A stretch of 32,087 bases of DNA, from assembly GCA_017309115.1 (NCBI GenBank), contig JAFLEF010000069.1:1-32087 (forward strand). Direction: 5' to 3'. The position numbers and the translations under genes are program-made. Under the pieces are notes generated by a model that was not told where the DNA came from, searched no databases, and worked only from the letters and a program-made list of their open reading frames with translations. Shown one piece after another: positions 3,829-32,087 of this stretch. The stretch's first letter is position 1. Every line of letters starts with the position of its first letter. The stretch is from Verrucomicrobiota bacterium (GTDB lineage: Bacteria > Verrucomicrobiota > Verrucomicrobiia > Limisphaerales > UBA9464).

Positions 3829-6564
3829 ATGTTTAGCAACGCTCTCATCCGGCGTGCCGCACTCCCGTGCCTGCTCGTCGGCTCAATCCTAGCAATCTCC
3901 GAATCCCGGGCCGCGTTGTCCGAGGGTTTGGTCTCATACTGGCCAATGGAGGAAGTCGCCGGCGGCAAAACGCCTGACCTCGTCAGCGGCTACGACATGA
4001 CCCTCAACAACCTGACCGAGGCCGATCTGGTGGAGGGTAAATTCGGTAAGTGCTTCTCCTTCTCCAACGCCAAGCAGACCCTGTTGAGTCGCATTCACGG
4101 CGCCAACGACGATCTGCCGGCCAACAAGCACGCCGCCTTCACCATCGCCTTTTGGGCCAACGTCAATGGCACCGGGCAGACCGATCTGCGCCTCTTCTCC
4201 GAGGGATTCACTCCCAACAACAACAATCCACTCTTCAACATTGGCACCCATAACGGCGGCGCCGATGGCAGCGTGGATTTGTTCATTCGCCAAACCGGCT
4301 GGACCGACGTCAACCACATCAAATCCATCGCCCAACCTTTCGATGGCACGTGGCGTCACATCACCTTCGTTCAACAAGAAGACGGGTCCCGCAAACTCTA
4401 CGTCGACGGCCTTCCGGATGAGCTCGAGATTCCCGCCAAGGAAGCCGGCACCTGGATTCTCAATGACACCACCATCGGCGGCATCCTCCGCGCCTCTGCC
4501 TCCCACTGGGTCACCGGTCTCATCGACGAAACCGCCATCTGGAAACGCGCTCTGTCCGAAGCCGAGATCACCGAACTGAAAAATCAGGGGCTGGTCAGTG
4601 TGTTTCCGCCGGAAGCCAAGGGGCTGGTGGCCCACTGGCCGATGGAGGAAGTCGCCGGCGGCAAGACACCGGACCTCGTCAGCGGCTACGACATGACGCT
4701 CAACAACCTGACCGAGGCCGATCTGGTGGCGGGTAAATTCGGTAAGTGCTTCTCCTTCTCCAACGCCAAGCAGACCCTGTTGAGTCGCATTCACGGCGCC
4801 AACGACGATCTGCCGGCCAACAAGCACGCCGCCTTTACCATCGCCTTTTGGGCCAACGTCAACGGCACCGGGCAGACCGATCTGCGCCTCTTCTCCGAGG
4901 CGTTCACTCCCAACAATAACAATCCGCTCTTCAACATTGGCACCCACAATGGCGGCACCGACGGCAGCGTGGATCTGTTCATTCGCCAAACCGGCTGGAC
5001 CGACGTCAACCACATCAAGTCTACTGCCCAGCCATTCGACGGGACCTGGCGTCACATCACCTTCGTTCAACAGGAGGACGGTTCCCGTAAACTCTACGTC
5101 GACGGCCTTCCGGATGATCTCGAGATTCCCGCCAAGGAAGCCGGCACCTGGATTCTCAACGACACCACCATCGGCGGAATTCTCCGCGCCTCCGCCTCCC
5201 ACTGGGTTACCGGTCTCATCGACGAAACCGCCATCTGGAAACGCGCCCTGTCCGAAGCCGAGATCAACACCATCAAGAACTCGGGGGTTCCCAAGGTCAT
5301 CACCAAGCGCCAACCCCTCGAGATCAAATCCTTCATGGCTGACTACCCGGCCGCCGCCAACGGCGACCAAGTTTGGTTGCGCTGGGAAGGCAGCAAGGAC
5401 GCCAATTACTCCCTCGATCAGGGCGTCGGCGATGTCACAGCCCAAACCGCCGGTGGCGTCGGTGCCAAGGCGGTGACGGTGAATGCCACCACCACCTACA
5501 CCCTCACCGCCAGCCGGGGCAATGAAACCCTCACGGCGCAGTTCGCTGTCCGCGCGGTCCCAGGCGTGGCCGCGGGATGGCATCTGGTGGAGACCTTCGA
5601 ATTCCTTAACGACGGAAACATCGCCAACCAGAGCCAATGGCTCGGTGCCGAAGGCTTGTTCAGTGTCATTTCCCAAACGGGCAACAAGGCGCTCGGGTTT
5701 GATGACGGAGCCGACCTGACGGCACTAAAGCTGAATTCTTTCGGCCTGACCGAAGGCCAAAAGGGAACTCTGAGCTTCCGGATCCAGTTCCTGCCCACGC
5801 CCGCCGAAGAACTGTCGGCGCCGATCGGAGTGCACATCGGACTCACCGAACGTTCCATTCGGTTCAATGGCGACTTCAATCAAAACGTCGGGCCCTATGT
5901 TCGGTTGGAGCGTTTGGCGGAAGGCACCACTATCGATCTGCTGGCCCGCAATGGGGTGGCCACCCAATTCTACGAAGGCATGGTGGTGGATGCCTTCCAA
6001 CCGGGCGTGTGGTATCGGCTCTGGATGGATGTCGAGAACAAGCCCTTCAACGTGGTCGATGGAGTACAAAACGGCGGCGACGTGTACTCGGTTTATCTGC
6101 AGAAAGAAGGCGACGCCGGCCGCACCACGGTGTTCGAGAACTTCCTGGCCGACCGGGATGCGGTCACCATTGATCCCGCTCTGGGCGCCCCCACGGCCCA
6201 CCTGACGCACGTGTTCATCTCCACGCCGGGAACGGGTCAGTTGGCGAATCGGGTTCTGGTGGATGACTTCTTCATGAGCGTCGGCAGTTACAATTCCACC
6301 GTTCCCTACGTTCCCGTGGTTGGACCGACGGAAATCATCGTCACCGGCAGCGAGTTCAATCCCGCCAACGGCAGCTTCACCCTCACCTGGGGATCCCAGG
6401 CGGGTCTGCGATATCGGGTGGAGAAGCAAACAGCCTTGGGCGGCAGCTGGACGCCCCTGGCGACCGGGCACCCCGAAGGCGGAGCTGTCGGAACCTCAAC
6501 CTCCTATACGGACACCAACGCCGGCGCCCAGGCCGGATTCTATCGGGTGGTGTTCACCCCGTAA
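3829..6564 (+). CDS. Secreted protein with two tandem LamG-like domains (911 aa)
   Basis: A signal peptide is visible (basic RR, then a hydrophobic run ending in SRA near residue 29). Two concanavalin A-like LamG domains follow, roughly residues 33-250 and 265-482. Both contain WPMEE, AFTIAFWANV, DGTWRHITFV, KLYVDG and GLIDETAIWKRALSEAEI, the usual LamG landmarks. The copies are offset by exactly 232 residues and differ at only about five positions between WPMEE and LSEAEI. After an Ig-like stretch (about 495-580) comes a third jelly-roll-like region (about 590-820). The C-terminal domain is of the FTLTWGSQAGLRYRVEKQ ... FYRVVF type, common in Verrucomicrobiota extracellular proteins. Likely role: a cell-surface or secreted glycan-binding protein, with no catalytic motif seen. 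It is monocistronic with a strong terminator. The ligand is unknown. Confidence 0.88.
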   Translation: MFSNALIRRAALPCLLVGSILAISESRAALSEGLVSYWPMEEVAGGKTPDLVSGYDMTLNNLTEADLVEGKFGKCFSFSNAKQTLLSRIHGANDDLPANKHAAFTIAFWANVNGTGQTDLRLFSEGFTPNNNNPLFNIGTHNGGADGSVDLFIRQTGWTDVNHIKSIAQPFDGTWRHITFVQQEDGSRKLYVDGLPDELEIPAKEAGTWILNDTTIGGILRASASHWVTGLIDETAIWKRALSEAEITELKNQGLVSVFPPEAKGLVAHWPMEEVAGGKTPDLVSGYDMTLNNLTEADLVAGKFGKCFSFSNAKQTLLSRIHGANDDLPANKHAAFTIAFWANVNGTGQTDLRLFSEAFTPNNNNPLFNIGTHNGGTDGSVDLFIRQTGWTDVNHIKSTAQPFDGTWRHITFVQQEDGSRKLYVDGLPDDLEIPAKEAGTWILNDTTIGGILRASASHWVTGLIDETAIWKRALSEAEINTIKNSGVPKVITKRQPLEIKSFMADYPAAANGDQVWLRWEGSKDANYSLDQGVGDVTAQTAGGVGAKAVTVNATTTYTLTASRGNETLTAQFAVRAVPGVAAGWHLVETFEFLNDGNIANQSQWLGAEGLFSVISQTGNKALGFDDGADLTALKLNSFGLTEGQKGTLSFRIQFLPTPAEELSAPIGVHIGLTERSIRFNGDFNQNVGPYVRLERLAEGTTIDLLARNGVATQFYEGMVVDAFQPGVWYRLWMDVENKPFNVVDGVQNGGDVYSVYLQKEGDAGRTTVFENFLADRDAVTIDPALGAPTAHLTHVFISTPGTGQLANRVLVDDFFMSVGSYNSTVPYVPVVGPTEIIVTGSEFNPANGSFTLTWGSQAGLRYRVEKQTALGGSWTPLATGHPEGGAVGTSTSYTDTNAGAQAGFYRVVFTP
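3928..5272 (+). repeat. Tandem 696-base duplication inside the LamG gene
   Basis: The codons for the Trp of WPMEE lie at 3940 and 4636, so the period is 696 bases (232 codons). Long stretches are identical at the nucleotide level, including third codon positions, for example around GGTAAATTCGGTAAGTGCTT in both copies. This implies a recent duplication or ongoing gene conversion. Confidence 0.9.
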
Positions 6565-10764: not shown

Positions 10765-10984
10765 GGTAGGTCGAGGTTCCACCGAGCCGTTCACGTCTCG
10801 GCAAATGACGCGTTACCCGTCCACTCGCGCACGGCTCCGCGGAGCGTCGCCCTACCCCTCTTCCGACCTCTCTCAGCTCTCAGCTTCCCCCCGGTAGGGC
10901 GAGGTTCCACCGAGCCGTTCACGTCCCGCCGAATCACGCGTCACCCGTCCACCCACGCACGGCTCCGCAGAGCGTCGCCCCACC
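10765..10984. repeat. Two tandem GGTAGGGCGA palindromic units
   Basis: Unit 1 has arms at 10765-10789 and 10832-10856. Unit 2 has arms at 10893-10917 and 10960-10984. The left arm GGTAGGGCGAGGTTCCACCG(AGCCG) and the reverse complement of the right arm agree at about 21 of 25 positions, so each unit can form a 25-base-pair stem around a loop of about 42 bases. The units are 128 bases apart and separated by a TCTCAGC heptad block. A single left arm recurs at 29512-29536, and an arm in the right-arm version at 21640-21664. With the heptads, this block fills the 349-base gap between the aminotransferase and tetR; no gene is seen in it. Confidence 0.85.
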
Positions 10985-10992
10985 CTTCCGAC

Positions 10993-11034
10993 CTCTCAGC
11001 TCTCAGCTCTCAGCTCTCAGCTCTCAGCTCTCAG
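10993..11034 (+). repeat. CTCTCAG heptad array, six copies
   Basis: There are six perfect tandem copies of CTCTCAG, followed by CTTCCCCC. Shorter versions with the same flanks (CTTCCGACCTCTCAGC...CTTCCCCC) occur at about 10861-10892, 29478-29505 and 29797-29827. It ends about 15 bases before the tetR promoter. Confidence 0.9.
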
Positions 11035-11049
11035 CTTCCCCCAGACAAG

Positions 11050-19198: not shown

Positions 19199-20787
19199 CC
19201 AACTCCAGGGCTCCCCCTCAGCTGAGCCCCCCGCACAGCTTCAATGCGCGAATCCACTTCGCCCTGAGCCAGCCGGGTTCGCACCAACTCCCCGGGCTTC
19301 GCCTCGGACGCCGCGCGGAGCAGTCGTCCGGTGCTGGCGTCAAACGTCAGCGAATATCCCCGCTCCAACACCTGCAACGGCGACAGCAGGCGCAGGCTGC
19401 GGTCGGCTCGTTCCCAGCGGACCTGGGAGCGTTCCCACTGACGCCGCGCGGCCACGGACAACCGCCGCCGCGCCTCCAGCCAGCGACGGCGTCCCTGCTC
19501 CAACACCACCGCCGGCCGGCGGTCCGTGAGCCGACGCAGAGCCGTCTGCCACGCCACTTGGGCTTCGCGCACCCCGCGCCGCCCGCCTCGAGCCAGAGCC
19601 ACGGTGAGGTCATCCACCCGCTGGGCCCGGGCCTCCAATTGACGCCGCGGATGCAGCCGTTGCAGGCGCGCCACCCAGTCCTGCGTGGTCTCCTGAAATC
19701 CGCCGAGCGTCCGGGCCACCATCCAGCGCAGCCGACGCTGCCCCTCCACCAGCCGTCCTTCGGCCGCGACGTATCCGGCGGTCAGCAGTTCCGCCGCCGC
19801 ACTGGGAGTGGCCGCGCGCAGATCGGCCACGAAATCGGAGATCGTAAAGTCCACTTCGTGCCCCACGGCGGAGATCACCGGCAACGCCGACTCCGCCAAC
19901 GCCCGAGCCACGACTTCTTCGTTAAAAGCCCAGAGATCCTCGAGGGAACCCCCGCCGCGAGTCACCAGAATGGCCTGCAACGATCCGGGGTTCTCCAGCT
20001 CCCACTCGTTCAACGCCCGCACCGCCGCCGCAATCTGCGCCGCCGCGCCTTCCCCCTGAACTCGCACCGGCACGAGCACAAACTCCAGTCCCGCAAACCG
20101 CCGCTCGACCACGTGAAGCACATCGCGAATGGCCGCGCCTGTCGGGGAAGTCACCAATCCCACCCGCCGCGGAAACGCCGGAATCGGCCGCTTCCGTTCC
20201 GACGCAAACAACCCTTCCGCCTGCAACCGCGCCTTCAGTCGTTCAAAGGCCGCCTGCAACGCTCCCACGCCCTCCAACTCCACCGCCGTCACGCGCAACT
20301 GATACTGCCCGCGGGGTTCGTAGACCGTGATTTCCCCGGTCAACGTCACCTTCACGCCATCGCGCAGCTGATTCCGCGCGCCGCCGCTCTGACCCCGGAA
20401 CAGCACACAGCTCAGTTGCGCCTGGGCATCCTTGAGCACGAAGTAGGCATGACCACTCGCTTGCAGGCGAAAGTTGGAAATCTCGCCCGTGACCCGAACC
20501 GCTCCGAAGGCGTCTTCCAACTGACGCTTGATGCCCTGGGTCAGTTCGGTCACCGACCACGCCGGCGGCGGCCCCGAAACGACCGGAGCCGCTGGAATCG
20601 CCGGCGCCGCTGATCGGGAAGGCGTCTTGACAGCCGCCGGTTCCGACACCACCGCCGGCTTCGACTCGGACTTTGTTTCCGGGGGAACTTCCGGCACGGG
20701 CGGCGGAGTCCGTTCCGGTTCGGAACGACGGGCAGGGGCGGCGAAGAGATCGCCGAAGTCCCATTGAGACTTGGAGGGTCGAGGCAT
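19177..20787 (-). CDS. xseA: Exodeoxyribonuclease VII large subunit (536 aa)
   Basis: XseA forms, with XseB, the nuclease that degrades single-stranded DNA in repair and recombination. After an N-terminal OB-fold (about residues 76-175: SVTELTQGIKRQLEDAF, GEISNFRLQASGHAYFVLKD) comes the catalytic domain with RVGLVTSPTGAAIRDVLHV (from about 208), TRGGGSLEDLWAFNEE and SAVGHEVDFTISDFVADLRA, then the long helical coiled region. It is longer than usual (about 400-450 aa) because of a 75-residue Pro/Ala/Glu-rich N-terminal tail starting SKSQWDFGDLF, and a C-terminus that reads into a repeat. It is the second gene of a unit with the HEAT-like gene (2-base gap). No xseB is visible. Confidence 0.93.
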   Translation of the reverse strand: MPRPSKSQWDFGDLFAAPARRSEPERTPPPVPEVPPETKSESKPAVVSEPAAVKTPSRSAAPAIPAAPVVSGPPPAWSVTELTQGIKRQLEDAFGAVRVTGEISNFRLQASGHAYFVLKDAQAQLSCVLFRGQSGGARNQLRDGVKVTLTGEITVYEPRGQYQLRVTAVELEGVGALQAAFERLKARLQAEGLFASERKRPIPAFPRRVGLVTSPTGAAIRDVLHVVERRFAGLEFVLVPVRVQGEGAAAQIAAAVRALNEWELENPGSLQAILVTRGGGSLEDLWAFNEEVVARALAESALPVISAVGHEVDFTISDFVADLRAATPSAAAELLTAGYVAAEGRLVEGQRRLRWMVARTLGGFQETTQDWVARLQRLHPRRQLEARAQRVDDLTVALARGGRRGVREAQVAWQTALRRLTDRRPAVVLEQGRRRWLEARRRLSVAARRQWERSQVRWERADRSLRLLSPLQVLERGYSLTFDASTGRLLRAASEAKPGELVRTRLAQGEVDSRIEAVRGAQLRGSPGVGTANERE

Positions 20788-20789
20788 GG

Positions 20790-21596
20790 TCAGTGTCGCG
20801 GTTCGGGAACAATGCCTCCTTCGGCATCCGAGCGGTAGGAATAGCGCGCCGCTTCCCGCACCACCGATACCTGATCGGCCTCCAACTGGGCGAGTAGTCG
20901 GGCCACGGCAGGGGTTCGCTCCGGAATGCCGTGCAACATCAGGGCGACCCGCATGCGAATCACCGGATCTTCCGACTGGGCCAATTGCTCCAGCAAGGGC
21001 AGCACCTCCAAAGGAATCGGCCAGTTGTTGGCCACCATCAAGGCGTACATTCGATTGGACGCTTTGGGCCGCAGCGCCGCTTCCAGGAGCAACCGGCGCA
21101 ATTCCACCGTGGTCGCGAGTTCGATCAGTGCCGGCGCCACCACCCGGACTTGGTCCCGCGCCAACGGCAACCGGGGAATCGACTTACCCCAGTTGTTGGG
21201 AAACTTCTTGCAGAATTGGTCCCAGAGGCGCGCTACCGCCGACTCCGGTCGGACGAGCCGATTCACCAGCGCCTTCTGACCCTCCAGGCTCAGCGGCCGT
21301 TCCGGCACCCGCTGCTCGGTTCCATCGCGAATTTTTAACTCTCTTAACGACTGTCCGTTGTCTACGAGCGTCCTTCCCGTCCAGGCATCGGACGAGCGCA
21401 ACGCCTCAAACTCCTTGAGCCACTCTCCGGCTTCCCGTTCCCCAGGAGATACTCCCCGGGCGAAGGCCCACGCCAAAACGCCCGCCAAGCACAGTCCCGC
21501 CACCGCCCACACCCAACCCGAAGCTCTCACCCGAGGCTGACGCCGCGGGGCTTCCCCGGGAATCAGCGGCTCAACGCGCGAGGTGTCGGTGTTCAA
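20790..21596 (-). CDS. Membrane-anchored HEAT-repeat-like protein (268 aa)
   Basis: One transmembrane helix (WVWAVAGLCLAGVLAWAF, about residues 28-45) is followed by a soluble helical domain. The last 100 residues look like degenerate HEAT repeats (LIELATTVELRRLLLEAAL, PLEVLPLLEQLAQSEDPVIRMRVALMLHG, RLLAQLEADQVSVVREAARYSY). A scaffold or protein-binding role is inferred. The longest frame, to 21701, has an N-terminus (FFLSTLNFQLST) translated from the TCTCAAC repeat and is not believable. A TTG at 21596, immediately inside the repeat edge, is the best remaining start, but the original start may have been lost when the repeat arrived. It is followed by xseA after 2 bases, so the two are co-transcribed. 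Confidence 0.65.
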   Translation of the reverse strand: MNTDTSRVEPLIPGEAPRRQPRVRASGWVWAVAGLCLAGVLAWAFARGVSPGEREAGEWLKEFEALRSSDAWTGRTLVDNGQSLRELKIRDGTEQRVPERPLSLEGQKALVNRLVRPESAVARLWDQFCKKFPNNWGKSIPRLPLARDQVRVVAPALIELATTVELRRLLLEAALRPKASNRMYALMVANNWPIPLEVLPLLEQLAQSEDPVIRMRVALMLHGIPERTPAVARLLAQLEADQVSVVREAARYSYRSDAEGGIVPEPRH

Positions 21597-21598
21597 TC

Positions 21599-22024
21599 TA
21601 GTTGAGAGTTGAAAGTTGAGAGTTGAGAGAAAAAAGGCCGGTTGGGCGACGCTCTGCGGAGCCGCCCGTCGGTTTGTGGCCCCAAGGCGGATTAGGTTCA
21701 CCGGTTTTGGCTCTTTTCAACTCTCAACCGGTTTGTGGTTGGGGAAAACCTCCGGAAACGGACGCGAGTTAAGATCATGAACCGACGTGGGAGATCGACG
21801 CGCTGCTCTGTCACTCTGACTCCCCTGACGAGTTTGCGAGTCGGACCAAAGGAATCCAGATGGCGCGTCCTTCCGTCCGCGGCTACGGCGGTTCATGGAA
21901 AGTCGAGATCCAGAGAACCAAGTGTTCATTGGATCCAAAACGGTTAGAAGGTTCCGACCGCGGCCGGACCCGCCGCCTTGTTTTCGTGTTTTTCTCTCAA
22001 CTCTCAACTTTCAACTCTCAACTA
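21599..22024. repeat. Element bounded by a 36-base perfect inverted repeat of TCTCAAC heptads
   Basis: The left end 21599-21634 and the right end 21989-22024 are exact reverse complements (TAGTTGAGAGTTGAAAGTTG... and its mirror), enclosing 354 bases. Inside are a GGTTGGGCGACGCTCTGCGG arm (21640-21659, continuing to 21664), a GGTTTGTGGCCCCAAGGCG box (21671-21689) and another heptad block (21714-21729). The first 132 bases (21599-21730) match in architecture and in several words the 130-base element at 23797-23926. Only weak ORFs are present: 96 codons minus from 22007 and 70 codons plus from 21735. The right end stops 2 bases short of the ymdB-like stop codon, and the left end lies 2 bases from the HEAT-like gene start. 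Confidence 0.85.
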
Positions 22025-22026
22025 CG

Positions 22027-22812
22027 CTATTCGGCCAAGCGCTCCGAGACGCGCTGGATTCCCAAGGCTCGTCCCGAAATCTCGTCCACTTCGATCACAC
22101 ACCCGTTGAGTTGGATGCCCGTGGTGCAGACCCCGAAACGCTGGGGCGACTGGGTCAGGAACCGCTGAATCACCGGCGCATACTCCCGGCCCAACACACC
22201 ATCATGACCTCCGGTGAATCCGGCATCGGTGAGACAGGCCGTGCCGCCCGGCAGAATCCGCTCATCCGCCGTCTGCACGTGGGTGTGCGTGCCCACGATG
22301 GCACTGACTTGACCGTCCAAATGCCACCCCAAGGCAATCTTTTCGGACGTCGCCTCGGCATGAAAGTCCACGAAGATGACTGGGGTCTCCGCCCGCAACA
22401 GCGCCACCTCCGCCGCCCCGACCACGAAGGGATTCTCCAGCGCGGCCATGAACGTCCGGCCCTGAAGATTCAAAACCCCCAACGGCGCCACACCGGGCTT
22501 GCTGACAATCGTCGCCCCCCGACCCGATACACCGGCGGGATAGTTGGCCGGACGCAGGAAGCGCGGTTCCTCCTTCAACAATTGAACCACGTCCTTCTGA
22601 TCCCACAGATGGTCGCCCGACGTGATGACCTCCACTCCCGCCGCAAACAGTTCGCCCGCAGTGCCGGGAGTAATGCCCGCGCCTCCGGCCGAGTTCTCGC
22701 CATTGGCCACGACGTAGTCGATCCGATGACGCTCCCGCAACTCCGGGATCAGCCGCTGGCACGCGCGCCGCCCCGGCTCGCCCACGACATCTCCGATGAA
22801 CAAAATCCGCAT
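22027..22812 (-). CDS. ymdB: YmdB-family metallophosphoesterase (261 aa)
   Basis: This is a member of the TIGR00282/YmdB family of di-metal phosphodiesterases, known in Bacillus to hydrolyse 2',3'- and 3',5'-cyclic nucleotides and to affect biofilm and motility choices. Metal-site residues are visible in order: MRILFIGDVVGEPGR (Asp8), VANGENSAGG (Glu39, Asn40), TSGDHLWD (His68), DFHAEATSEK (His151) and GTHTHVQTAD (His176, His178). The ATG at 22812 starts the protein at the canonical MRIL; a TTG nine bases earlier is possible. The length is normal for the family. It lies 69 bases downstream of a pseudopilin gene on the same strand and may be read from it. Confidence 0.93.
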   Translation of the reverse strand: MRILFIGDVVGEPGRRACQRLIPELRERHRIDYVVANGENSAGGAGITPGTAGELFAAGVEVITSGDHLWDQKDVVQLLKEEPRFLRPANYPAGVSGRGATIVSKPGVAPLGVLNLQGRTFMAALENPFVVGAAEVALLRAETPVIFVDFHAEATSEKIALGWHLDGQVSAIVGTHTHVQTADERILPGGTACLTDAGFTGGHDGVLGREYAPVIQRFLTQSPQRFGVCTTGIQLNGCVIEVDEISGRALGIQRVSERLAE

Positions 22813-22881
22813 TGCCGCCAAAGGTGGGACTGTCCGCAGCGCGGGGCAAGGACGCTTCCCACCGGACCGCGCCCACCGAAC

Positions 22882-23727
22882 TCAATAGGTGCCGTTCTTG
22901 GAACCCGGATTGTACCAGCAGTCATTCGGACCGGTCGGATTCGCGGTAGTCGGCCAGATCGCCTTGCCCGCGAAATCCGGGGAGAACCAAACCTGCATCT
23001 TGAGCGCGGCCGAAGAGCCGTCGAGACGCCCGACCGGAGCCACCCCGCCCACAAATTCCTTCTGATCCTTCGGCCGGCGACCGCCGCCATGCCGTTGCGA
23101 AATGCCCTCGTGCGGCTGATTACCAACGTCGTTGAACAGATACTGCTCCTCGCTCTCCGGGCCTTCCCACATCAGGATTCCCGTCGGTCGGAGCGCGCCC
23201 AGCTTGTAGGTGGACGTCAGCACAGTGGCTGGCGGCTGCGCGTACCCAATGATCGCGCCGTTCCACACGTAACTGCAGATCTTGATCTCGCGCTTCTTGA
23301 AGTCGGCCTTGCCCTTCGCCGTGCCGCGTTCCGCGAGGTCTTTGGGACAGGTCAGCAACTTGACGTTTCCAAGAAAGGGCGCGAGCTGGCCCTTCCTGAA
23401 CGACTCCACCTGATTCGAGAACGTCAGCGCATCGTCCCTGCCCGCTCCGCTGGGAATGTTTTTGGCGTGGCACCAGTTGTCCCGATCGGCGGGATAGCCC
23501 CAGCTCGAATACGGCAGGTAATCGACATTGTCCGCCGCGAACAAATGGGCGCCCAGGAGCACCTGCCGAATGCCGCTGAGGTCGTTGACCAACAGCGCGC
23601 GATCCCGGGCCTTGCCCAGGGCGGGAAGGATCATTCCCGCCAGAATCGCGATGATGGCAATCACCACCAGCAGTTCGATCAGCGTGAAGGCCGTGCGCTC
23701 GGAAGGAGAAGATCGGGAAGCATTCAT
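22882..23727 (-). CDS. Type II pseudopilin-like protein with prepilin cleavage signal (281 aa)
   Basis: The prepilin N-terminus is [21 protein letters not shown], with cleavage expected after Ala13 (instead of the usual Gly), Phe14 as mature residue 1 and Glu18 as the conserved Glu5. It is followed by GMILPALGKARDRA and a globular domain with GNVKLLTCPKD and a late HGGGRR. This is the abundant family found in large numbers in Verrucomicrobiota, Planctomycetota and Lentisphaerota, of uncertain job but exported through a type II/IV pilus-like path. The ATG at 23727 is preceded by AAAGAAG at good spacing; the longer frame to 23769 is not needed. The upstream region holds the inverted element at 23797-23926. 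Confidence 0.88.
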   Translation of the reverse strand: MNASRSSPSERTAFTLIELLVVIAIIAILAGMILPALGKARDRALLVNDLSGIRQVLLGAHLFAADNVDYLPYSSWGYPADRDNWCHAKNIPSGAGRDDALTFSNQVESFRKGQLAPFLGNVKLLTCPKDLAERGTAKGKADFKKREIKICSYVWNGAIIGYAQPPATVLTSTYKLGALRPTGILMWEGPESEEQYLFNDVGNQPHEGISQRHGGGRRPKDQKEFVGGVAPVGRLDGSSAALKMQVWFSPDFAGKAIWPTTANPTGPNDCWYNPGSKNGTY

Positions 23728-23796: not shown

Positions 23797-23926
23797 CCAG
23801 CTGAGAGCTGAGAGGATCCAAAAACGGTAAACCGATTTCGCCTTGGGACCACAAACCCGTCCGCATTTCGAACGTGCCGATTCCCTGGATTTACCTCTCA
23901 GCTCTCAGCTCTCAGCTCTCAACTGG
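23797..23926. repeat. 130-base inverted element with CTGAGAG/CTCTCAG ends
   Basis: The left end is CCAGCTGAGAGCTGAGAGG (23797-23815). The right end, CCTCTCAGCTCTCAGCTCTC (23894-23913) then AACTGG, ends at 23926 and is its inverted partner. Flanking bases extend the pairing (CCCGGAAA before, TTCCCGG after). The core contains CGCCTTGGGACCACAAACCC, the reverse complement of the GGTTTGTGG.CCCAAGGCG box of the element at 21599-21730, and both cores share ACCG.TTTTGG. It lies in the divergent gap between the pseudopilin and DUF3500 genes, which otherwise holds nothing recognised. Confidence 0.8.
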
Positions 23927-25878: not shown

Positions 25879-26047
25879 GGAGGTGAACCGCAGATTAAGC
25901 GCAGATTAAACGCAGATTTTTTAAGCAGAAAGCCCGGCCCTTTCCGCTTCCCAATCGCTCATCGAGCCCGGCGCCTCGACCCTGAACTTGGCCAACCAAT
26001 AAAGAAATCTGCGTTAATCTGCGCTTAATCTGCGGTTCCAACTGCAT
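25879..26047. repeat. CGCAGATT-family inverted repeat element, copy 2
   Basis: The left arm AACCGCAGATTAAGCGCAGA... (25886-25919) and the right arm (26005-26037) are reverse complements over 33 bases except for one extra A. Each arm is three CGCAGATTAA-like decamers, and the core is about 85 bases. The left flank GGAGGTGAACC and right flank CCAACTGCAT match copy 1 at 131-285. It fills most of the gap between the methyltransferase gene and the small gene at 26064, whose start lies 17 bases beyond it. Confidence 0.9.
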
Positions 26048-29415: not shown

Positions 29416-29827
29416 GAGTTGAGAGTTGAAAGTTGAGAGTTGAGAGACGAGCAGTCGCCCGCGCTTCCCGCTTCCCCCTTCCGACCTCTCAGCTCCCAGC
29501 TTCCCGCCCCCGGTAGGGCGAGGTTCCACCGAGCCGTTCGCGCCGCAACGAATTGATACGTCACCAATCCACAAACGGCGCCCCCCGCTTACCGCTTCCC
29601 GCTTTGCCTTCCCCCTTCCCCCCATGATCCACGAATTGCACCCCAGAAACACGAATCGGCGTTGAACCACGGATCACACGGAAGAAGCACGAATGCGGAA
29701 TTCCTTTTCACTTCCCGGTGTTGCCTCTCCGCACTCAGCCGACTTCGGCCTTTTCTCACCCCTCCCGCGCTTACCGCTTACCGCTTCGCCTTCCCCCTTC
29801 CGACCTCTCAGCTCTCAGCTTCCCCCC
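29416..29827. repeat. Mosaic of heptad, palindromic-arm and CACGAAT repeats
   Basis: The 499-base gap between glyRS and the pseudopilin gene contains no credible gene. It holds a minus-oriented TCTCAAC array (29416-29446), CTCTCAGCTCCCAGC (29486-29500), one GGTAGGGCGAGGTTCCACCG arm (29512-29536) without its partner, a run of TTACCGCTT/TTCCCGCTT words (about 29588-29610 and 29770-29787), CACGAAT words (29638-29697) and a CTCTCAGCTCTCAGCTT block (29804-29821). The glyRS promoter should lie in or next to this mosaic, but no clear -35/-10 pair is seen. Confidence 0.75.
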
Positions 29828-30763: not shown

Positions 30764-31606
30764 CTACGGCTTGCGCAGCCGGAAGTAACGCTGAGGTTCG
30801 CCCTCCGAGGTAAGCGGCACATCCACTCCAGGTCCACCGGTGGGGTAGTACTCCCATTGGATGGGAGGAGCGAGGTTCGTGGTGCTTTCCAGCGTCCAAG
30901 CACTCACCGCTTGGGGCCAACTCAGCCGAAGCACCGGCTGGTCCGACTCATTCTTCGCCACTACTCCCGCCAGCGGAATCTGCGGCGGAAGTCCCGCCGG
31001 GATGGGTTGGTCCGGCACCGGATTCCAATCCCACGCGTCCAACGTGAAGGGCCTGGGAAACAGGGTGTCCGGCCGACTGAACTTCAACCAACCGTAGTGC
31101 CGTCCGTCTTCCAGATCGGCCCGAAAGCCGATCAGAAATGATGTTTTGTTGGTGAAAAATGGTTCCGGCAAAAATCGACTCAAATCCGCATAAAACCAAA
31201 CAGGAAACACCTCCTGTTGCCTGAACATGTTTAATGGCAGAATAACACTCGATGACTGATAAACAGGGCTTTGCACACCGACGTACTGCAAAGATTCAAA
31301 AGGAATGCTCAACTGACTTGCTCGCACAAATTTCGCATTGAGGCTCGGCTCTATTTGGTAGCCCACTTCAAACACCTCACCAAAAGACGGATAATAGTGG
31401 ACTCTATACTCCAATTCAAAACTCGAATCTAAATCCAAATCTATCGATGCCAGTAGACCCGACTGGGTCACCGGCGGAACGGGCAGATCTATTGGCTCAA
31501 CACCCCTACTCAGGTCGGGCAAAGCTACGAAAAGTATGGCAAGTATACTCCAGAAAAGGCCTGCCTGCCATGACCGGCGCACAACATCTGTTTCTAGGAC
31601 TTCCAT
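30764..31606 (-). CDS. Secreted protein, paralogue 1 of a tandem pair (280 aa)
   Basis: No named family is recognised. A signal-like hydrophobic stretch (AGLFWSILAILFVALPDL, residues 15-32) is followed by a beta-rich domain (residues about 40-210) and a short C-terminal domain LRLSWPQAVSAWTLESTTNL ... QRYFRLRKP, the type seen at the ends of many Verrucomicrobiota extracellular proteins and also on the LamG protein at 3829-6564. The C-terminal third is almost identical to the next gene upstream. The part encoded by about 31140-31560 is clearly AT-richer than both ends. It is followed 9 bases later by the pseudopilin gene. A surface or pilus-associated role is inferred from this context. Confidence 0.8.
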   Translation of the reverse strand: MEVLETDVVRRSWQAGLFWSILAILFVALPDLSRGVEPIDLPVPPVTQSGLLASIDLDLDSSFELEYRVHYYPSFGEVFEVGYQIEPSLNAKFVRASQLSIPFESLQYVGVQSPVYQSSSVILPLNMFRQQEVFPVWFYADLSRFLPEPFFTNKTSFLIGFRADLEDGRHYGWLKFSRPDTLFPRPFTLDAWDWNPVPDQPIPAGLPPQIPLAGVVAKNESDQPVLRLSWPQAVSAWTLESTTNLAPPIQWEYYPTGGPGVDVPLTSEGEPQRYFRLRKP

Positions 31607-31620
31607 AATGGCTATTAATG

Positions 31621-32087
31621 CTACGGCTTGCGGAGTCGAAAATAGCGTTGCGGCTCGCCTTCAGCCGGAAGAGGGACATCCACTCCAGCCCCACCGGTGG
31701 GGTAGTACTCCCACTGAATCGGAGGAGCCAAGTTTGTGGAGCTTTCCAGAGTCCAGGCGCTCACCGCCTGGGGCCAACTCAGCCGAAGGACCGGCTGGTC
31801 CGACTCGTTCTTCGCCACTACTCCCGCCAGCGGAATCTGGGGCGGCAGTCCTGCCGGGATGGGTAGGTCCGGCACCGGATTCCAATCCCACGCGTCCAAC
31901 GTGAAGGGCCGGGCAAACAGCGTATCGGGCCGGCTAAACTTCAGCCATCCGTAGTGCCGCCCGTCTTCCAGATCGGAACGGAAACCGATGAGCATGGAAG
32001 TCCTGTTCGTGAAAAAGCGGTGCGGAAGAGCGAATGCCAGATCGCGGTAGAACCAAGTTGGAAAGACCTCTTGTTGGCGGAAGGTTA
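31621..32087 (-). CDS. Secreted protein, paralogue 2 of the tandem pair (partial)
   Basis: The frame is open to the right edge of the window, so the N-terminus is missing; 155 codons are visible. They begin TFRQQEVFPTWFYRDLAFAL and align with MFRQQEVFPVWFYADLSRFL of the downstream paralogue. From the GRHYGWLKFSRPDTLF stretch to the end the two differ at only a handful of positions (for example PDQPIP versus PDLPIP, GGPGV versus GGAGV). It stops 14 bases before the start of paralogue 1. The unit would be paralogue 2, paralogue 1, pseudopilin. The function is unknown. Confidence 0.82.
   Translation of the reverse strand, partial: TFRQQEVFPTWFYRDLAFALPHRFFTNRTSMLIGFRSDLEDGRHYGWLKFSRPDTLFARPFTLDAWDWNPVPDLPIPAGLPPQIPLAGVVAKNESDQPVLRLSWPQAVSAWTLESSTNLAPPIQWEYYPTGGAGVDVPLPAEGEPQRYFRLRKP

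Follow-up and report, generated by a model that had tools for sequence, protein, structure and literature searches.

REP, BIME and REPIN elements are intergenic, occur as inverted pairs, contain GC hairpins and are built as mosaics. In the published passages considered here, heptamer repeats of bacteria are treated one heptad at a time and have been linked to slippage, G-quadruplexes or translational control. In Xanthomonas, GGGAATC repeats form the nearest published case to the locus analysed here (Rehm et al. 2015, PMC4692102). According to the cited sections, the majority of these repeats have four units, 89% and 93% are intergenic, and they lie at most 50 bp from starts, if on the antisense strand, or from stops, if on the sense strand; 70 and 75 cases of paired sites in 'convergent orientation' were counted, the repeats are generally without association with mobile elements, and G-quadruplexes are discussed by the authors (PMC4692102). 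The TAACTGA heptamers of Beggiatoaceae, Cyanobacteria and Bacteroidetes are read as translation-control sites in the cited part of their description (MacGregor 2015, PMC4679880). In BrickBuilt of Porphyromonas gingivalis, as far as the cited passages go, a minisatellite of 23-nt units lies within a MITE, the 12-nt TIRs resemble those of IS elements, and three of four complete copies carry short duplications of unequal length (PMC4596501). For TCTCAAC heptads in bacteria, no published report was found in the open-licence literature.

The element studied here is a 426-nt non-coding stretch at positions 21599–22024 of the window (the whole stretch of 32,087 nt that was analysed), between a ymdB-like phosphoesterase gene and a gene for a HEAT-repeat protein. 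It is bounded by two arms of 36 nt (21599–21634 and 21989–22024) that are exact reverse complements of each other (100% complementary) with a spacer of 354 nt; direct comparison confirmed this arrangement, which had been proposed in an earlier sequence-only reading. The right arm, on the plus strand, consists of a T-run followed by TCTCAAC, TCTCAAC, TTTCAAC and TCTCAAC. The left arm, on the minus strand, appears as four GTTGAGA/GTTGAAA heptads with an A-run on the inner side, and its pyrimidine-rich TCTCAAC strand reads leftwards, towards the HEAT-repeat gene. With the T's on the inside and a final A, the arm can be divided as CTCTCAA CTCTCAA CTTTCAA CTCTCAA CT, with the T variant in the third heptad, so that each arm contains a block of ∼30 nt and four heptads, C[TCTCAAC TCTCAAC TTTCAAC TCTCAAC]T. 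The heptad pattern is not a product of chance, since the window contains 11 matches to YTCAACTYTCAAC at no more than one mismatch against 0.13 expected, and none of 100 shuffles reaches 11. Folding of the element gave a minimum free energy of −192.1 kcal/mol as RNA (z −8.6) and −108.9 as DNA (z −10.0), and in neither case was any of 100 shuffles as good. A 36-bp stem could form between the arms, in RNA or in single-stranded DNA, so the element, if it acts at all, probably acts as a hairpin in an untranslated region, and is otherwise probably tolerated filler. A search of Rfam in the region 20500–23200 returned no match up to an E-value of 1.

Both neighboring genes lie on the minus strand and, as the sequence-only reading had noted, the element fits between them to within 2 nt on each side. 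The HEAT-repeat gene (20790–21596) ends at 21596 with a TTG start codon, which is our choice of start, and the ymdB-like gene (22027–22821) begins on this strand map with its stop codon at 22027–22029. The longest frame of the HEAT-repeat gene (20790–21701) extends upstream through the heptads (FFLSTLNFQLSTRLN), and an automatic start call placed there would translate the repeat. The element is located inside an apparent ymdB–HEAT–xseA gene string. When filled and empty sites were compared in congeners, a check to which that reading lent itself, two of them (G004 and G003) proved to keep the gene pair without the insert: ymdB and the HEAT-repeat gene are adjacent, the HEAT-repeat protein is 41% and 39% identical, and the tblastn matches of the two genes are 77 and 139 nt apart, respectively. 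These gaps are no larger than what the unaligned N-terminus of the HEAT-repeat protein fills (31 and 49 residues), which leaves no room for an insert at the junction. In the other two congeners (G001 and G002), xseA directly follows ymdB. Because two congeners have no room for it, we infer that the element was added in the present lineage or, less likely, was lost in both of the others.

The interior of the element is a mosaic, because its different parts match different loci, and the ends and core pieces of the element are distributed separately. Next to the left arm, motif comparison in the sampled own genome identified a REP-like GC-rich hairpin module (GGTTGGGCGACGCTCTGCGGAGCCGCCC) at 21640–21667 on the plus strand. 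It is the one REP-like hairpin of the element, and its tag is GGTT rather than the GGTA or GGTG that precedes 146 of the 204 GGGCGASSCW sites in the sample. It is followed, at 21670–21714 on the plus strand, by a segment that repeat comparison showed to be the right half of an 83-nt repeated core (CGGTTTGTGG...GGTTCACCGGTTTTGGCTC); elsewhere this core sits between two heptad arrays at exactly that spacing, and a subfamily with the core between arrays exists in the own genome. An internal array of two heptads, TTTCAAC TCTCAAC, oriented like the right arm, occupies 21715–21728 (plus strand). Another repeated module, whose short ends are inverted (CATGAACCGACG / CGGCGGTTCATG), spans 21744–21903 on the plus strand and has homologues of 75–83% identity on five contigs (C52, C74, C60, C31 and C18), with a short match on C51. 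The last stretch, 21904–21988, is almost matchless among the own-genome candidates that were scored, apart from one 79% match that runs from 21958 into the arm.

Parts of the element recur throughout the genome. The 7.53-Mb own genome contains 210 occurrences of TCTCAACTCTCAAC and 102 of TCTCAACTTTCAACTCTCAAC, the latter being absent from all of 58 relatives, four congeners included; the own genome also gives hits with the backward-read control (56 and 79), which is unavoidable in arrays of the TCTCAAC heptad. For TCTCARCTCTCARC (two TCTCARC units), 1,145 occurrences were counted in the own genome and 19, 23, 0 and 0 in the four congeners, and the pattern is present in 18 of 59 genomes, own included. 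Three TYTCAAC units are found in 28 of 387 genomes of the phylum (own included), and another heptad, GCTTMCC, occurs as three units at 190 places in the own genome and in 2 of 58 relatives. With the whole element as a DNA query, at least 140 matching stretches were obtained in the own genome (the best 40 of 457 candidates were scored). The sequence-only reading had named a lack of other copies as the outcome that would count against it, and the genome search shows copies of the element's parts. Its description of an insertion-like non-coding element agrees with this recurrence and with the two congeners that have no room at the junction. Its proposal of a non-autonomous element family holds in that relatives exist and fails in that the element is composite rather than a single transposon. 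Most of the own-genome statistics below refer to 1.11 Mb of the 7.53 Mb, composed of 57 of 59 own-genome stretches around repeats and the window; this sample was chosen for holding repeats, so densities are biased, and gene calls come from a home-made caller and are rough. A very dense heptad cluster, with 42 TYTCAAC arrays in 55 kb, is located on one contig of the same genome (C42 of G000, 24000–79084).

Other repeats of the window can be listed alongside. Two CTCTCAG arrays, the longer of 6.3 units, lie with REP-like GC hairpins at 10832–11036 (R> C> R> C>), just upstream of a frame that we take to be a TetR-family regulator. An AGCTGAG/CTCTCAG foldback at 23799–23924 has an 8-nt direct repeat 3 nt outside each end, perhaps by chance. 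At 29417–29819 a heptad cluster is found (<B A> A> A> A> C>) whose first array falls in the N-terminal extension of a frame, presumably that of a glycyl-tRNA synthetase. Arrays of an 11-nt unit (CGCAGATTAAA-like) at 138–263 and 25887–26035 occur in both orientations and constitute another repeat family; for the CGCAGATTA family of 11-mers, polarity differs between two search patterns. Judged by eye, a large frame at 3829–6564 contains two nearly identical internal stretches of ∼230 residues, the mark of a recent internal duplication, and adjacent frames at 30764–31606 and 31621–32085, the second of which is cut by the end of the window, have near-identical C-terminal parts, as after a recent tandem duplication.

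Three heptad families were defined: A (CTTACCG), B (TCTCAAC, in the form of TYTCAAC arrays) and C (TCTCAGC). The phase and unit number of family B, to which the arms belong, are nearly constant. Among 105 TYTCAAC arrays with at least three units, 80 have exactly four, 55 of these 80 read C-C-T-C, and exactly one extra base on the 5′ (left) side fits the period in 101; on the right side one further base fits in 69 arrays and none in 27. Since phase and unit number vary so little, the family B arm looks like a block of ∼30 nt that is copied as a unit. Such copying is well supported only for family B, the other two families being looser: the 89 arrays of family C range from 3 to 7 units (47 with three and 31 with four) at a constant phase, and the 30 arrays of family A range from 3 to 8 units, 13 of them with four, at a phase that is not constant. 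AAGGGGT, a minor own heptad with 32 arrays that was counted within family A, has G-tracts. GTTGAGA and GCTGAGA contain no GG run and hence no G-tracts for a G-quadruplex.

The perfect complementarity of the arms follows from the consensus of the module. In the 1.11-Mb sample, the exact 36-mer occurs only at the two arms, the 35-mer that remains without its last A occurs nine times and the 30-nt inner part 55 times. The longest exact match between paired arms has a median of 23 nt (21 cases), and the median is also 23 nt for arms taken from different stretches in ∼1,000 random pairings, 3.8% of which reach 36 nt. This length is reached by 3 of the 21 real pairs (P = 0.04) and, when the window's own pair is left out, by 2 of 20 (P = 0.17). 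As arms of different loci match equally well, no process that copies the ends is needed to account for the perfect 36-mer, and, contrary to the sequence-only reading, perfect arms do not imply youth, selection or joint copying. Special (concerted) copying of both arms was dropped for the same reason, paired arms being no more alike than arms across loci, and there was no sign of template-switch correction, in that identity within elements is not above identity between elements. The final 'TA' of the arms is incidental. The sequence-only reading had compared the TA...TA ends with those that a TA-targeting element would leave, while noting that TA also belongs to the palindrome; such an element is not supported by 72 de-duplicated own arrays, in which the second base after the heptads is G in 37 and A in only 8.

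The arrays have a marked polarity. We call a pair outward when the purine-rich array is on the left and the pyrimidine-rich array is on the right, i.e. when the purine-rich strands converge. With families A, B and C taken together, neighbors within 150 nt in the own sample comprise 57 outward and 5 inward pairs, and 172 on one strand. When only pairs with unrelated middles are counted, 12 are outward and 2 inward (P = 0.013). Family B alone gives 34 outward and 3 inward pairs within 500 nt, many of which repeat the 83-nt unit. Heptad families, hairpin and core occur together in clusters, and the preferred order of arrays along the strand (neighbors within 120 nt) is A before C at 58:8, B before C at 17:4 and A before B at 24:16.

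The arrays are mostly intergenic: only 12 of 150 B arrays fall inside called genes, though 74.6% of the sample is called coding, and 44 of the 129 that were kept are no more than 25 nt away from a called gene. For a test of direction at gene borders, 372 of the 452 A, B and C arrays were kept, namely those outside genes, with a called gene on both sides and in a region shorter than 3 kb. The pyrimidine strand is directed at the nearest gene border in 259 of the 372, alike at starts (114:49) and stops (145:64). A single array is present in 76 of 159 repeat-bearing intergenic regions, and 57 of these 76 are directed at the nearest border and 19 away from it. Arrays between divergent genes account for 72 of the 372, and those between co-directional genes for 188.

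The same heptads occur in other phyla. An exact 28-mer scan of GTDB species genomes returned at least 99 stretches, 80 of which were taken as loci, and the taxa among the matches listed are Bacteroidales, Prevotella, Clostridia, Planctomycetes, Kiritimatiellae, Fibrimonadales, Cytophagales and other Verrucomicrobia. Foreign arrays contain both TCTCAAC and TTTCAAC, intermixed, and are less uniform in length. The exact 28-mer was therefore dropped as a sequence shared across phyla, and only the heptads can be called shared. Among the loci listed, all 24 foreign inverted neighbors that a looser heptad pattern identified within 150 nt are outward, and within 300 nt the counts are 25 outward and 1 inward; pairs with unrelated middles amount to 13 outward and 0 inward. 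Several of the foreign middles are short and palindromic. A search of 387 genomes of the phylum for spacers of 5–35 nt, which has almost no power, found two outward sites (in two other genomes) and one inward site (in the own genome). Primer pairing through an 'AAC' microhomology before the foreign arrays was considered and dropped, as in several loci the palindrome continues into the core. Among IMG/VR viral contigs, 23 stretches (L284–L306) contain the four-heptad block; two pairs of neighbors within 150 nt are outward there and none is inward, and the viral-contig scan returned one ymdB relative. These viral matches do not enter the argument.

We consider it reasonably probable that the element is a composite, non-coding foldback (quasi-palindromic) intergenic repeat, made of modules that have been multiplied and recombined. 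Its ends would be two inverted copies of the 30-nt four-heptad module, drawn from a set comprising the three heptad families, the REP-like GC hairpin, the 83-nt core and others, which would have been multiplied and recombined in intergenic spaces. New copies would come from duplication of the whole module rather than from fresh slippage at every site; hairpins may have provoked template switching and shared heptads recombination, perhaps with the help of a trans-acting enzyme.

This composite origin has to be weighed against mobility of a more conventional kind. If the element were a MITE (a non-autonomous TIR transposon) whose ends are heptads, a DDE transposase would have mobilized it, possibly at TA targets. 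The inverted 36-nt exact arms qualify as TIRs; the flush fit between genes, the empty sites in two congeners and the many copies also speak for this reading, as does the repeated occurrence of two heptad arrays separated by exactly 83 nt. Individual direct repeats near the ends point the same way, one of 8 nt at the 23799–23924 element (0.09 expected in 63) and one of 6 nt at a foreign locus (L200; 0.04 expected in 22 foreign elements). However, direct repeats of at least 3 nt were present in 9 of the 63 own elements against 8.0 expected from shuffled pairings and in 4 of the 22 foreign ones against 2.6, so that target duplications do not characterize the elements as a set. No dinucleotide is conserved outside the ends. 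Elements with common ends differ in their cores, heptads often stand alone, as in the 76 single-array regions, and in the part of the own genome that was searched no transposase parent bounded by the element's ends was found. We regard such a transposon as unlikely, and a Tc1/TA element was rejected because TA is not conserved and target duplications are at the level of shuffled pairings. Doubtful, too, is a REPIN/BIME-like origin, in which inverted REP hairpins are moved by a Y1 (RAYT/TnpA_REP) transposase and the heptads are hitch-hiking flanks. It draws on the hairpin at 21640–21667 and on the GGTA or GGTG tags of most such sites, and the verrucomicrobium O. terrae is reportedly highly enriched in GTAG repeats (PMC3733652). 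The own genome contains five Y1_Tnp matches over the cut-off, but none of these loci (∼1.5 kb on each side) carries a GGGCGASSCW hairpin or a heptad block, which goes against a suggested Y1/REP-type parent with heptad ends. A match to GTAGGGCG is present at one of the five; three have no heptad pair, and at each of the remaining two a single heptad-like match of 11 nt stands isolated, ∼1.1–1.2 kb away. Many heptad arrays are also without a REP hairpin alongside.

Plain heptanucleotide microsatellites, generated by independent polymerase slippage and inverted only incidentally, would fit the range of unit numbers in families A and C and the variable phase of A. Heptanucleotides are, in the cited sections, the most abundant class of 5–11-nt repeats in most genomes surveyed, and slippage has been proposed for such repeats (PMC4679880, PMC4692102). 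Slippage is nevertheless quite improbable here, given the constant phase, unit number (four in 80 of 105) and shared internal variant of family B, the attachment of arrays to a limited set of repeated flanks and the non-random polarity. A selected regulatory hairpin, or bidirectional terminator with A-run, hairpin, T-run and heptad stems active on both strands, would account for the pyrimidine-rich 3′ arm on either strand, the strong folding and the nearness to gene borders. A terminator scan of 21500–22150 found 1 site against 0.9 expected, arrays also occur between divergent and co-directional genes, and the element lies within the ymdB–HEAT–xseA string, where such a signal would not fit in two congeners; we judge this explanation very unlikely. 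On either side of a break, G-rich telomeric strands would have this same polarity, and a telomerase-like reverse transcriptase could have added RNA-templated heptads to broken ends so that the purine-rich strand is the 3′ end. If this were true, a non-coding RNA template holding the heptads (GTTGAGAGTTGA) should exist. Bacterial DRT10 reverse transcriptases do make tandem-repeat cDNA, but in the cited passages this cDNA is not described as inserted in chromosomes, and the Eco3 DRT10 repeats are 9 nt long (PMC12632851). The three RVT_1 genes of the own genome have no heptad run in their ∼1.5-kb flanks, and the inner modules between the arms would be left unexplained, which makes this possibility highly improbable. 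An integron attC site was rejected, as the polarity of the core sites would be reversed over a long span.

For the composite foldback repeat itself, recombination or template switching alone leaves unexplained both the single polarity across heptad families and the border-directed solitary arrays (57 against 19). It is conceivable, though not likely, that the element represents a class of foldback repeats with heptad arms that spans several phyla, with the same heptads and one preferred polarity, and is made by a dedicated copying activity. Examples would be the addition of purine-rich heptads, templated by RNA, to the 3′ ends of intergenic breaks, or an enzyme acting in trans and copying the whole module; G-quadruplexes would not be needed. 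What copies the heptad blocks is directly testable by strain comparison in heptad-rich species. The significance of the locus lies in a polarity common to several heptad families in one genome and to the TCTCAAC/TTTCAAC heptad in other phyla.

Compared with the described systems, the element has most in common with the GGGAATC repeats of Xanthomonas, as far as the cited sections describe them (PMC4692102). Four heptads prevail in both, in 80 of 105 TYTCAAC arrays and less so in families A (13 of 30) and C (31 of 89). Inverted pairs with converging purine-rich or G-rich strands are found in both (57:5 here, and 12:2 with unrelated middles), and we would read the published 'convergent orientation' as the polarity observed in our sample. 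Both are intergenic and close to gene borders. Unlike GGGAATC, TCTCAAC and TCTCAGC have no G-tracts, and quadruplexes are therefore unlikely as a general cause of the polarity. Several heptad families are present in one genome here, joined with REP-like hairpins and other modules, and the phylum is another one. The Xanthomonas repeats are mostly found between the same genes in two species, whereas two congeners lack the insert here, and for the related Nostoc repeats only a few pairs were seen (PMC4692102). The TAACTGA repeats are, in the cited sections, likewise short heptamer repeats that are mostly intergenic, patchy across phyla and sometimes mixed with other heptamers, and they are absent from the relative's shorter intergenic region in three compared cases; unlike those studied here, they consist of a different heptad in direct repeats, with one indirect repeat in BOGUAY (PMC4679880). 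BrickBuilt shares tandem repeats within an inverted-ended element, according to the passages cited (PMC4596501). With REP, BIME and REPIN elements, the element shares its intergenic position, inverted ends, GC hairpin and mosaic build, and it differs from them in that its arms are heptad arrays and that a link to a Y1 transposase was not found at the five loci.
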